Source: Anderseniella sp. Alg231-50
GTDB lineage: Bacteria > Pseudomonadota > Alphaproteobacteria > Rhizobiales > Aestuariivirgaceae
DNA length: 64,000 nucleotides
Reading direction: 5' to 3'
Assembly (NCBI RefSeq): GCF_900149695.1
Contig: NZ_LT703005.1
Span: forward strand, 248,013 to 312,012
Position numbers and translations under genes: made by a program. The notes under the pieces were generated by a model that worked only from the letters and a program-made list of their open reading frames with translations, was not told the origin of the DNA and searched no databases. Shown piece after piece: positions 45,049-49,298 of the stretch (position 1 is the stretch's first letter; each line of letters starts with the position of its first letter).

Positions 45049-45102
45049 GACGAGACCTCCCTGCATCGATGATGACGACACAGTAATTCCGCTTTTAGGA
45101 GA

Positions 45103-45128
45103 TGTCTAGACACAACTGTCCAGTACTG
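45103..45128. promoter_or_regulatory. Clustered palindromes, candidate TetR operator
   Basis: TGTCTAGACA at 45103-45112, ACTGTCCAGT at 45115-45124 and CAGTACTG at 45121-45128 overlap in 26 bases, 55 bases before the first gene of the amine operon. Spacing and symmetry suit a TetR-type regulator, and the operon encodes one. Confidence 0.4.
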
Positions 45129-45258
45129 TTCCAGCATCGCCAACACCAGCCCGCCGGCTGCAGGAAACGACACGATGCCCGCAACAAACCGGCACCATTT
45201 CAGGGTGTTGGATGGAATTGTTGATCAGATGACGCTGACTGCCGGAGCACTGGTCATT

Positions 45259-46368
45259 TCAGTGCGGGGCCCGGGCGACCCGTTCATACACTGCCAACGT
45301 CCTTTCACGGCCCACCGTTTCGGAGAAATTATCAATCACGTGCCGACGCCCATCGCTAACCCTCCGTGCCTGCAGCTCCGCGGGTTCACGTGCCGATCGA
45401 ACCAGACCGCGGGCCAGCGCCTGCCAATCGTCCGGATCAACCAGTTCGCAGAACTGTTCAATATAGCTTCCTGCATAGGCACGCAGGTTTGCGGTCACAA
45501 CGGGCACACCGCAGGCGGCAGCTTCCAGCAATGTGGAGGGAAACGCATCTGCAACCGGATAGTTGACGACAAAATCAACCATTCCATACATGCCTGGCAT
45601 CATTTCGTAACGAACCTCGGGGATCCAGTACAACCGTTCGGAAATGCCCAGTTCCTCGGCCAGTTGTTGCAGTTCTCTCACCCGGTCGGACCGATCCCAG
45701 GACCTAGTAAGCCTGATCATGGCGAGGCCTGCGGTGGCCGGAAGATCAGGTAATGCTGAGGCAAACGCCCGAAGTATTTCCTGCTGCCGATAACCATCAC
45801 CGATACCGCGGGCAGAAAAGAACACAATTGCATCAACGGGTATCTGCAGGGCTTGCCGCCAGGCAGCACGCTTGGCAAGTGTACCCGGTTTGTAGTGCAC
45901 CGGATTCACGCCAAGACAGATAAGTTCGCAGTCGATGCCATCATAACGTTTTGTTGCGGCATCAAAAAGCGGACGGCTCTCGACGATGACAGTTGGCCCG
46001 GTTGCCATCAGATCATCTATCCGTGGCTTAGGTGGCACCGAACCTATGAGCCCGTTAAGACCTCCAAACGCCGACAAGATCAGCGGCCCCAACCCCGCCT
46101 CATGATGGAATTCTGTCAGGAAACTGAAATTGTGGGAATGTGTCACGTGCGGGCGGAAGTCGGCGGCAATCGCGGCCAGCTCCGGCACAGGATTGTCCCA
46201 GGACTGTATCTGCACGTGACGGGCCCGGCTTGAGCCGGAAATTTCCCCCAGATAACCGGCCCACACAACTTCATGCCCGGCATCCACAGCCCAGTCACAC
46301 ACCCGTGTGGCAGGAGCTGCGTGCTCGGAACCATACATGAGAACACGCATTGGAGGTCTATCGGCCAT
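45259..46368 (-). CDS. GT4-type glycosyltransferase
   Basis: A 369-residue GT-B fold sugar transferase. Donor-domain motifs VDAIVFFSARGIGDGYRQQE, RLYWIPEVRYEMMPGMYGMV and the acidic loop DAFPSTLLEAAACGVPVVTA (GT4 pattern, with Asp where many have the first Glu) are visible. There is no signal peptide or TM segment, so it acts in the cytoplasm. Its acceptor is unknown. It lies 67 bases downstream of a RiPP-like peptide gene and near a PqqD-family gene on the same strand, so glycosylation of that peptide is a reasonable hypothesis. Confidence 0.85.
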   Translation of the reverse strand: MADRPPMRVLMYGSEHAAPATRVCDWAVDAGHEVVWAGYLGEISGSSRARHVQIQSWDNPVPELAAIAADFRPHVTHSHNFSFLTEFHHEAGLGPLILSAFGGLNGLIGSVPPKPRIDDLMATGPTVIVESRPLFDAATKRYDGIDCELICLGVNPVHYKPGTLAKRAAWRQALQIPVDAIVFFSARGIGDGYRQQEILRAFASALPDLPATAGLAMIRLTRSWDRSDRVRELQQLAEELGISERLYWIPEVRYEMMPGMYGMVDFVVNYPVADAFPSTLLEAAACGVPVVTANLRAYAGSYIEQFCELVDPDDWQALARGLVRSAREPAELQARRVSDGRRHVIDNFSETVGRERTLAVYERVARAPH

Positions 46369-46435
46369 TCGTCATCAGATTGGTGTTCAGTCAATATGGG
46401 CCGGATGCTGTGGACGGCTCAGGTCTGCCTGTTTT

Positions 46436-46606
46436 TCAGCTGTCAGCAGTGCTCGGTTCCGGGCTATCTATTTCTGGTCCGGTGGTGGTTGGCTCCGGGC
46501 TGGACGGATCAATCCACGGTGCTGTTGTCAGGTCCGTTATTGATCCGCACGCTACAATTTTTGGCGCTTGATAAGATTTTGCCGACGGGCTCACTTGCTG
46601 CTGCAT
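46436..46606 (-). CDS. Candidate RiPP precursor peptide with lasso-type leader motif
   Basis: A 56-codon gene too short for ordinary listing. The ATG at 46606 is preceded by GGGAGCGAAATTCAA, a good ribosome binding site. The leader (1-28) contains KSYQAPKIVACGSITDLT at 10-27, which fits the lasso-type recognition pattern Y-x-x-P-x-[LI]-x-x-x-G-x-[LI]-x-[DE]-L-T read by PqqD-like proteins. The core (about 28-56) is rich in Pro, Ser, Thr and acids, with two copies of S-P-E-P-[TS]-T (36-41 and 48-53) and a single Trp31. The only Cys (20) is in the leader. It is 119 bases after the PqqD stop and upstream of the GT4. No cyclase or leader peptidase gene was found beside it. Confidence 0.6.
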   Translation of the reverse strand: MQQQVSPSAKSYQAPKIVACGSITDLTTAPWIDPSSPEPTTTGPEIDSPEPSTADS

Positions 46607-46725
46607 TTGAATTTCGCTCCCTCACTGGGTTTGTTACCTCGGACTTCAAATACCGTAACGGAAGTAAGAAGCCCTATCAAGGAGCTACACGTTGGCTTGT
46701 TGAAGAAGGCGGATTACCGATTATC

Positions 46726-47025
46726 TCAGTCTTGCCCGGAAGGAGAGGGACTTTCTTCCGCGGTGTGAAGCAGGTCCAGTTGAACGAACTCTGCAATCAG
46801 TGCTTCAACGTCCCTTTGCAAGTCCGCAACAGGGACTTGGTACTCCGACGCCATGGCTTCGGTCACTTTGTCACGCGATCCGAGCTTGCCAAGCAACTGC
46901 CAGATGCGTGCTGCTGTGCCGTCCAGCCGGTAATAGTTTTCATTTTTCAGGTTCAGAATGACAGTTTCGTCTTCAACTTCCTGAACGAGAATACTCGTGG
47001 AGACCGTCACTTTCAGATCATGCAT
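46726..47025 (-). CDS. PqqD-family RiPP recognition protein
   Basis: The 99-residue product matches the PqqD/RRE domain: EVEDETVILNLKNENYYRLD, GTAARIWQLLGKLGSRDKV, EYQVPVADLQRDVEALIAEF and QLDLLHTAEE. The winged fold binds leader peptides and positions them for a modifying enzyme. It is not in a pqq operon: no pqqA, pqqC or pqqE is present. Immediately downstream lies a peptide with a fitting leader motif, then a GT4 gene, all read in the same direction. Confidence 0.82.
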   Translation of the reverse strand: MHDLKVTVSTSILVQEVEDETVILNLKNENYYRLDGTAARIWQLLGKLGSRDKVTEAMASEYQVPVADLQRDVEALIAEFVQLDLLHTAEESPSPSGQD

Positions 47026-47194
47026 GTATGGGTCCGTGGTTGCTGAGCGCGCCCGGCTTCATACCATGAACGCAATAACTTCCCACCCGTTATCGCAATC
47101 GCTGCAGGCTCGATCATCAGCGTCCATATTCATGAGTCGGCAATTCCGCTTCGAAGAGCTGACCAGGTGAAATCGATGAATTCTGTGCTGGGAC

Positions 47195-48544
47195 TCAGCC
47201 CCGCACGCTCTCCAGCCCGCACCACTCGGCGATGAACAGGGCGATGGAACCGGTCACCCGTTGCACCGACGACAGAGATACACGTTCATCGAACCCATGG
47301 ATGTTTTCCGAATAAGGGCCGTACACCAGGCACGGGATGTCGCCGTACAAGACGAACACCCGCCCGTCGAGATAGCCCGGTGTCACCATTGTTTCCAGCG
47401 ACTTGCCGTAGGCCGCCGCATGCGCCCGGCCCAGTGCGGCTTCCGCATCAGAGCCTTCTTCCAGCACATAGCCTTCGGCAAAGAACCCGTTGAATTCCAC
47501 TTGCGGCGGGTTGTTTGACAGGAACGCATTGTCTCTCGCGGTGTTGCGTATGCAGTCTTCAACCTCCTTGGCCGCATCGCGCGGGTCCACGCCGGGATAG
47601 ATCGAGATCCGGCAGTCGAACGAACACCATGCCGGCACCGACGAGGCCCAGTCACCGCCCTCGATCTTGCCGACGTTGAAATTGATCGGGTGATTGTAGT
47701 CCTCAAAATAGCGATGCTCATGCTGCCGGCCGTTCCACTCTTCCTCCAGCCTGCGCAGACCCTTCATGACCTCAAAGCTGGCCTCGATGGCATTGGCGCC
47801 GGCGCTCGCCTCGCGCACATGCACCGGCAGTCCGCGCACATTCACCTTGAACCAGATGACGCCGACATTTGCCCGCACCAGCTTGTCGTCTTCGGGTTCC
47901 GGAATGATGGCTGCGTCGGCCCGGTATCCGCGCACCAGCGCGGCCAGCGCACCATTGCCCGTGCACTCCTCCTCGGTTACCGACTGGATGTGCACTGTTG
48001 CTGCCGGCTGGAAACCTAGCGACCTCAAGGCATCTAGTGCATAAATATTGGCAGCAATTCCGGCCTTCATGTCGGCACCGCCGCGGCCATACAGCCAGTC
48101 ACCGTCGCGCCACGGTTCAAACGGCGGTCTGGTCCACATGTCGAGAGGGCCCACCGGCACCACGTCCACATGACCGTTGAGGATCAGGGACCGGCCCGCC
48201 TCTTCACGCGGCCGGTGCGTGCCGACCACGTTGATGGCGTTGGTGTAGTCTACCTTCACCGGCGAAAATCCCGGATGATGTTCAATGTCGGCAACATCGA
48301 TGGACCAGCGATCCATGGCATAGCCACGCTGCTTCAGTTCCCCGAACAGAAAGTCCTGCGCCGTGTGTTCCTGGCCCCGCAGTGACGGAAACCGGACGAG
48401 GTCTTCGGTAAACGCGGTTTGCGCTGCAAACCCCGCATCAACCGCGGCCAGAATATCCCTGGTGAGTTCTGTGTCGAGTGCCATGTCCGGGCCTGCCTGT
48501 GTCCTGCCTGCCGGAACCTTGATCGCGTTGACCATCACAGTCAA
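47195..48544 (-). CDS. M20-family metallopeptidase/amidohydrolase (ArgE/DapE class)
   Basis: A 449-residue zinc hydrolase with the M20 motifs ILNGHVDVVPVG (first metal His), GRGGADMKAG (bridging Asp) and QSVTEEECTGNGAL (catalytic Glu-Glu), then ADAAIIPEPED. The dimerisation domain follows (WFKVNVRGLPVHVREASAGA). Family members deacylate amino acids, including acetylornithine and succinyl-diaminopimelate; the substrate is not determinable. An ATG at 48484 is an alternative start. It is read as a single-gene unit next to the RiPP-like locus, and no link to it is claimed. Confidence 0.85.
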   Translation of the reverse strand: MTVMVNAIKVPAGRTQAGPDMALDTELTRDILAAVDAGFAAQTAFTEDLVRFPSLRGQEHTAQDFLFGELKQRGYAMDRWSIDVADIEHHPGFSPVKVDYTNAINVVGTHRPREEAGRSLILNGHVDVVPVGPLDMWTRPPFEPWRDGDWLYGRGGADMKAGIAANIYALDALRSLGFQPAATVHIQSVTEEECTGNGALAALVRGYRADAAIIPEPEDDKLVRANVGVIWFKVNVRGLPVHVREASAGANAIEASFEVMKGLRRLEEEWNGRQHEHRYFEDYNHPINFNVGKIEGGDWASSVPAWCSFDCRISIYPGVDPRDAAKEVEDCIRNTARDNAFLSNNPPQVEFNGFFAEGYVLEEGSDAEAALGRAHAAAYGKSLETMVTPGYLDGRVFVLYGDIPCLVYGPYSENIHGFDERVSLSSVQRVTGSIALFIAEWCGLESVRG

Positions 48545-48644: not shown

Positions 48645-49298
48645 TCAGCTGTAGGGACTGATGCAGGCGTGCCAGTAGCCGTCATAGCCCATATAGGCGT
48701 CACGGCGTTCGTTGTAGGACCGATACCGGTCTTCGCACCATTCAACGTGCAACTCATAATCCGATCCCGCATAACGCGCTCCGCTGTACGCAATGATCGG
48801 TGCCGAATAAAGCCACCACGGTGAGGCATAATAAAAGCCATTGTAGTAATGCTTGTGACTGTGACGGCGATTCCTGAAGCGCTTGCCGTGTTTGCGGCGT
48901 TCGTACCGCCTCGCTCTGCGTTCCCTGCGGTCTGCGCGCCGGTCGGCCCGCCTGGCTCTGCGTTCGGCGCGCCTTTCACGACGTTCCGCACGTTTGACCC
49001 GATCACGACGCCTGACTTTTCGGTCTTTGCGTTTCGCGCGTCTCTCGGCACGCCGTTCAGAGCGGCTTTCAGCACGATTTGCCCGTCTTTCGGCACGGTT
49101 GGCCCGACGTTTGGCGCGATTGGCCCGGCGTTTGGCGCGTTTTGCCCGCTTTTCTTCGGCGGTTGCGCCACGATCATCGAACTGGACAATGGATTTTTTG
49201 AACTCGCGGCCGGCTTCGGCCGACGGCACGGCACTGAATGCACCGACCGACAGCGCCACAGCGCCTGCCACCCCGGCCACAAACTTGAACTTGCTCAT
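48645..49298 (-). CDS. Secreted arginine-rich BA14K-like protein
   Basis: The 217-residue precursor has a Sec signal peptide (MSKFKFVAGVAGAVALSVGA, cut near AEA), then about 95 residues dominated by R-A-x-R-R units (KRAKRRANRAKRRANRAE-type), which is extremely basic, and a C-terminal BA14K domain with WCEDRYRSYNERRDAYMGYD and a paired Cys in HACISPYS. BA14K proteins occur in Hyphomicrobiales and are immunoreactive, lectin-like surface proteins. The long Arg-rich insert is unlike ordinary BA14K members. GGGGGTTCC precedes the ATG. Confidence 0.82.
   Translation of the reverse strand: MSKFKFVAGVAGAVALSVGAFSAVPSAEAGREFKKSIVQFDDRGATAEEKRAKRAKRRANRAKRRANRAERRANRAESRSERRAERRAKRKDRKVRRRDRVKRAERRERRAERRARRADRRADRRERRARRYERRKHGKRFRNRRHSHKHYYNGFYYASPWWLYSAPIIAYSGARYAGSDYELHVEWCEDRYRSYNERRDAYMGYDGYWHACISPYS

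Follow-up and report, generated by a model that had tools for sequence, protein, structure and literature searches.

Three open reading frames, all intact and all on the minus strand, lie where the first-pass annotation had described a PqqD/RRE gene, a gene for a 56-residue peptide and a GT4 gene in the window, by which we mean the whole 64-kb stretch of DNA analyzed (Table 1). The peptide ORF is 119 bp downstream of the RRE gene, and the GT4 gene starts 67 bp past the peptide stop codon. These same-strand genes make up the entire gene content of an insert relative to the corresponding site of a congener, and none of them encodes a peptidase, an exporter or an immunity protein. No sigma-70 promoter was found in the cassette region, a PADLOC search for anti-phage defense returned no match, and a 257-aa antisense ORF that spans the region has no Pfam match.

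Table 1. Positions of the cassette genes, the parts of the peptide and the insert (window numbering)
Feature	Position	Strand	Details
PqqD-like discrete lasso-type RRE (B1/PqqD-like)	46726-47025	-	99 aa; PF05402, 60 bits
Candidate precursor peptide	46436-46606	-	56 aa, coordinates including stop codon; GGAG before ATG
Leader part, residues 1-28	46523-46606	-	YQAPKI RRE-binding motif at 46556-46573; Thr27 penultimate
Core part, residues 29-56	46439-46522	-	APWIDPSSPEPTTTGPEIDSPEPSTADS
GT4-family glycosyltransferase, divergent	45259-46368	-	369 aa; PF00534, 51 bits
Insert relative to the congener's empty site	45128-47208	no strand	tblastn/blastn of flanks against L078; 139 bp there

RESULTS

The recognition protein and its predicted partner

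By sequence and fold, the PqqD-like protein is a lasso-type RRE. It scores 47 and 44 bits against the lasso PqqD models NF033530 and NF033536 (both under the cut-off), and its closest PDB sequence match is TbiB1 (5v1u; E value of 4e-9), with TfuB1 and LppB also among the best solved relatives. A single-sequence AlphaFold2 model (pLDDT of 80) finds as its top PDB folds the TbiB1-leader complexes 5v1v and 5v1u (E value of 3e-5; TM score of about 0.7 to 0.8), with PqqD ranking behind them. The pocket residues D72, Y62, L34, L76 and L85 are kept, and the positions with which LppB holds its leader map to L34, D35, I41, M58, Y62, L69, D72, L76, F80 and L85 of the RRE; D72 is the counterpart of LppB D70, which bonds the leader Tyr (PMC13381572). 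Because the fold is of the lasso type and the LppB-equivalent pocket positions are retained, the RRE is predicted to bind a YxxP leader such as that of the neighboring peptide, and we regard this pairing, as a prediction, as well supported. A role in PQQ biosynthesis was rejected: the true PQQ PqqD model gives 16.2 bits against a cut-off of 46, the peptide has no E-x3-Y, and there is no pqqA-E cluster.

The leader, YQAPKIVACGSITDLT, carries the full YxxPx[I]x3Gx5T motif, with its Tyr, Pro, Ile, Gly and Thr spaced as in alphaproteobacterial lasso precursors, which bears out the original description of a lasso-type leader matching the RRE. Its Pro-to-Thr spacing of 12 is that of the lasso precursors of L049, L077, L096, L101, L102 and L104; these precursors, from related bacteria, adjoin genes for a cyclase, an HprK-like kinase or B2. 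The spacing is exact, but the matches to lasso-leader HMMs are sub-threshold (E value of 0.069 for NF033528; 12.2 bits for NF033521, against a cut-off of 19).

Within ORFs of up to 130 aa, the motif [YW]xxPx[LIVAF]x3Gx4[LIV]T has a single match in the 363 kb of DNA compared, namely this peptide, and none in 20 Markov shuffles of the window (1.28 Mb). Searched as a DNA pattern, the leader has three matches in the 4.6-Mb genome, against one in a backward-read control; the other two genomic matches are either internal to a long ORF or interrupted by a stop, and only here does the pattern fall in a short open peptide. With the sole good match in the genome situated 119 bp from an RRE gene and on the same strand, a chance occurrence is not plausible. 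A good ribosome-binding site (GGAG, 10 nt upstream of the ATG) precedes the ORF. Codon usage does not set the peptide frame apart from the other frames, the peptide has no Pfam match, and no homologue was found among relatives and plasmids.

The core and the glycosyltransferase

The 28 residues of the core include 9 Ser/Thr, 7 Pro and 6 Asp/Glu, and the single Cys of the peptide sits in the leader, leaving the core free of Cys. In the conserved register, in which Thr27 is penultimate, the core has Ala1, Asp5 and Glu10 and no Asp or Glu at positions 7 to 9, so that the lasso pattern of a small first residue together with Asp/Glu at 7 to 9 is absent. All ten comparison lasso precursors, drawn from this genome, from four congeners or near-congeners and from other Alphaproteobacteria, have Gly or Ser at position 1 and Asp/Glu at position 8 or 9. 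A nonstandard register (T24-D25|L26TTAPWID) gives a Leu1-Asp8 ring at the price of a Pro-to-Thr spacing of 9, compared with 11 to 12 in all others. Judged by composition, the core may be likened to O-glycosylated linkers.

The GT4 protein has a recognizable C-terminal nucleotide-sugar domain and carries DAFPSTLLEAAACG (DAFPSTLLE), a DX7E in place of the usual EX7E, with Asp as the first acid. Its best PDB matches are weak (29 and 23 bits), and a model built without an alignment has a pLDDT of 39. No match was detected at an E value of 1e-30 or lower in 385 genomes of the class, nor at 1e-40 in a set of 100 relatives, five congeners among them. GT4 enzymes usually act in polysaccharide or lipid synthesis; that this one acts on the peptide is nearly an even question.

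Origin and distribution of the cassette

In the congener G001, the flanks of the cassette are kept (lipA and genes for a RatA family protein, an M20 peptidase, DMGDH, MttB, TetR and an FAD oxidoreductase), with most proteins 87 to 95% identical, and the M20 and DMGDH genes are adjacent, separated by a short spacer without the cassette. The cassette genes also have GC3 values (0.51 to 0.58) below those of the flanking genes (0.69 to 0.73). Given this absence at the congener's site and the lowered GC3, the cassette looks acquired. The insertion site appears to be variable, since two further congeners (G003 and G004) lack the DMGDH block downstream of the M20 gene. The insert edges show no fitting flanking direct or inverted repeats as transposon hallmarks.

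We found no second cassette. The searches covered 60 to 100 relatives (with the peptide, PqqD and GT4), 385 genomes of the class (with GT4 and PqqD), about 400 genomes each of the phylum and the order (with PqqD), and genome contigs (where the one match was to a generic Chloroflexi glycosyltransferase), plasmids and viral contigs.

Two other features of the surrounding DNA were recorded. A palindromic TGTCTAGACA box lies upstream of the DMGDH gene (window positions 45100 to 45130), is kept in congener L078 as ACAGTTGTGTCTAGACAT, and is possibly the operator of a betaine-type catabolic cluster. At window positions 48645 to 49298 is the gene for a 217-aa protein rich in Arg/Ala repeats, with a signal-like N terminus (MSKFKFVAGVAGAVALSVGAF...); the protein varies among congeners (56 to 84% identity).

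Lasso machinery elsewhere in the genome

The initial statement that no lasso cyclase or B2 is present holds for the window and fails for the genome, in which PF13471 and PF00733 matches occur on other contigs. At C1:1455-1457 kb, a B2 peptidase gene (NF033537, 71 bits) accompanies genes for PqqD, an HprK-like kinase and a lasso precursor, an arrangement that four congeners share. At C1:1428-1435 kb, a polysaccharide region encodes a cyclase-like protein (NF033535, 279 bits), an NTP_transf_5 protein and an MsbA-like exporter. A second cyclase-like protein (NF033535, 187 bits) is encoded at C4:361-365 kb, next to a WxxP precursor and together with an HprK-like protein; both cyclase-like proteins score below the NF033535 cut-off of 525. 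The lasso machinery seems to be spread across several genomic loci.

At the first of these loci (L047:9193-11388; G000:C1:1455.2-1457.4 kb), the HprK-like, PqqD and B2 genes are followed by a WxxP-leader precursor, with no cyclase gene adjacent; the precursor core, GGFASAGVDNCFTPDGFRCDP, has Gly1-Asp9 and two Cys, and the precursor is conserved in the congeners L050, L051 and L060. The polysaccharide region (L095:6863-14503; G000:C1:1427.9-1435.5 kb) also encodes sugar epimerases and, on the opposite strand, a possible WxxP precursor (WVRPRLMCINIAELTKFSCGSGTDTINPGASQPPNC). At the third (L094:7808-9901; G000:C4:360.8-362.9 kb), a 62-aa WxxP precursor (WTKPQLRLVPILAITRGSLPHNTNDNPIFPQ...) ends 4 bp upstream of the gene for the cyclase-like Asn-synthetase protein, forming a second, dispersed lasso unit in this genome. 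At another RRE-type locus (L048:7409-10418; G000:C1:1075.4-1078.4 kb), the gene for a likely SPASM radical-SAM protein (judged by eye) is followed by those for a third PqqD-like protein and one additional protein.

In the host's lasso precursors found elsewhere, the leaders are of the WxxP type and the spacing is 11; the window peptide alone has YxxP with a spacing of 12. In Bacillota, Tyr versus Trp at this leader position insulates two RRE systems (Popov et al., PMC13381572), and by analogy the YxxP/WxxP split may have a similar role in this genome. The host RRE also keeps the Tyr-binding Asp, so cross-talk between the systems is possible.

DISCUSSION

What computation establishes at this locus is a set of intact genes, an RRE with a lasso-type fold and pocket, a matching leader, a core that is not of the lasso type, and a recent insertion. 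Our tentative preference is for a horizontally acquired, minimal satellite RiPP cassette in which the RRE brings a linear peptide, rich in Ser, Thr and Pro, to the GT4 enzyme for glycosylation. The B1-type RRE would bind the 56-aa precursor by its YxxP leader and present the linear, acidic core to the GT4, which would use a nucleotide sugar to O-glycosylate core Ser/Thr residues. Any cleavage of the leader and any export would fall to proteins from other loci, such as the B2 peptidase of the chromosomal lasso system and an ABC exporter of the MsbA type. In favor of this reading are the identity of the RRE and its Tyr-bonding Asp, the near-unique leader beside it, the insertion of the genes as a unit, the hydroxy- and Pro-rich core, and precedents among LPPs and RRE-GT2 proteins. 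Against it stand the singleton status of the cassette, the uninformative codon usage of the peptide, the lack of peptidase, exporter and immunity genes, the low pLDDT of the GT4 model, and the Asp in its EX7E motif.

Comparison with known systems separates recognition from modification. With lasso clusters that have a discrete B1, B2 and cyclase (TbiB1 and FusE/TfuB1 types), the cassette shares the B1 RRE fold, the pocket, the spacing of the [Y/W]xxPx[hydrophobic] leader (here in its YxxPx[LIV] form) and the penultimate Thr; it differs in having a GT4 gene, no B2 or Asn-synthetase-like cyclase in the locus, and no ring pattern in the core. It would act as a lasso-type recognition module but, by its core pattern and enzymes, is not a lasso cluster. 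On an Antarctobacter plasmid (L104:4543-13772; NZ_CP022542.1), a lasso cluster of cyclase, HprK, PqqD and B2 genes is followed by a PF13692 GT4-type glycosyltransferase gene, whose product has no detectable similarity to the window GT4 and shows that GT4 genes occur near lasso clusters elsewhere.

The LPP peptides of Bacillota likewise have YxxP leaders and RREs of the lasso type and do without a cyclase; they are linear, are modified by a kinase and an NTP transferase, and are located in capsule loci (PMC13381572). The cassette resembles them in these leader and RRE features, in the lack of a cyclase in the locus, in a variable linear core and in the presence of a lasso system in the same genome. 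In contrast to them, it has a GT4 instead of a kinase and lacks an HprK kinase, an NTP transferase and a SipW-like (SpI-like) peptidase, and its leader departs from the LPP consensus YxxPxVLxHQxIxFETxxS (PMC13381572). Pseudomycoidin, a lasso peptide that carries both phosphate and hexose (review, PMC9266682), is a further case of a leader-guided lasso-type system in which the peptide can receive a sugar. There, however, the sugar is on a phospho-Ser of a true lasso and is linked to the nucleotidyltransferase homologue PsmN, not to a GT4.

Glycocins of the sublancin type, which also pair a ribosomal peptide with a glycosyltransferase, rely on GT2 enzymes, double disulfides and transporters with a C39 peptidase, and they lack an RRE. 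The cassette has an RRE, and glycocin identity was ruled out by its GT4 enzyme (PF00534), its Cys-free core and the lack of a transporter among the three inserted genes. A chemical precedent comes from the GtfA/GtfB-type GT4 O-GlcNAc transferases, members of the same superfamily that modify Ser-rich adhesins; the likeness is one of enzyme class, and their Ser/Thr-rich substrates are large proteins. RRE-GT2 fusions exist (PMC12710340), and the literature searched yielded no case of a GT4 partnered by a discrete lasso-type RRE.

The RRE and peptide could instead form a functional RiPP pair to which the GT4 is a passenger, such as a polysaccharide enzyme, with modification by another enzyme of the genome, for example an HprK-like kinase or a nucleotidyltransferase, in the manner of LPP or paeninodin-like systems. 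The usual roles of GT4 enzymes point this way, as do the two HprK-like kinases and the NTP_transf_5 protein encoded near lasso-cyclase-like genes in a polysaccharide region, and the linear, capsule-associated LPPs. We consider this arrangement unlikely: the insert consists of just three same-strand genes, with the GT4 start close behind the peptide stop codon. Less probable still is a lasso precursor, either one that the B2 and cyclase-like proteins of the chromosome mature in trans (with cleavage in an unusual register, a Leu1-Asp8 ring and a long tail) or one left behind after the loss of B2 and the cyclase. Such proteins are indeed encoded elsewhere in the genome, and the alternative register does put Asp at position 8, but that register needs a spacing seen in none of the others, the one conserved in YxxP comparison precursors gives Ala1 without D/E at 7 to 9, and the host's own precursors have WxxP leaders.

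That the peptide ORF is spurious, so that the PqqD-like protein is an orphan and the neighboring GT4 has no relation to it, seems to us very improbable, since a fully spaced leader motif next to its RRE would hardly arise by chance and the ORF has a good ribosome-binding site. The lack of a homologue, the codon usage and the antisense ORF (itself without a Pfam match) would nonetheless fit a spurious frame, and of some 8,000 discrete RREs of the lasso type, about half occur without B2 and a cyclase (PMC7470986). The locus may also be a remnant of a larger system rather than a functional cassette, although all three frames are intact.

Returning to the proposed glycosylation cassette, we think it rather doubtful that the locus represents a new RiPP type, in which a lasso-type RRE, standing alone, steers a GT4 to the linear Ser/Thr/Pro-rich peptide that this enzyme glycosylates, with all three genes in one mobile cassette and a YxxP code distinct from the host lasso WxxP. 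If the cassette does work as proposed, the RRE, the peptide and the GT4 would make up a very small system for glycosylating peptides under RRE direction and would put the lasso recognition code to a new use. Such a system would also be a natural instance of YxxP/WxxP insulation inside a single Gram-negative genome, and it would be a convenient tool for directing glycosylation by a leader.
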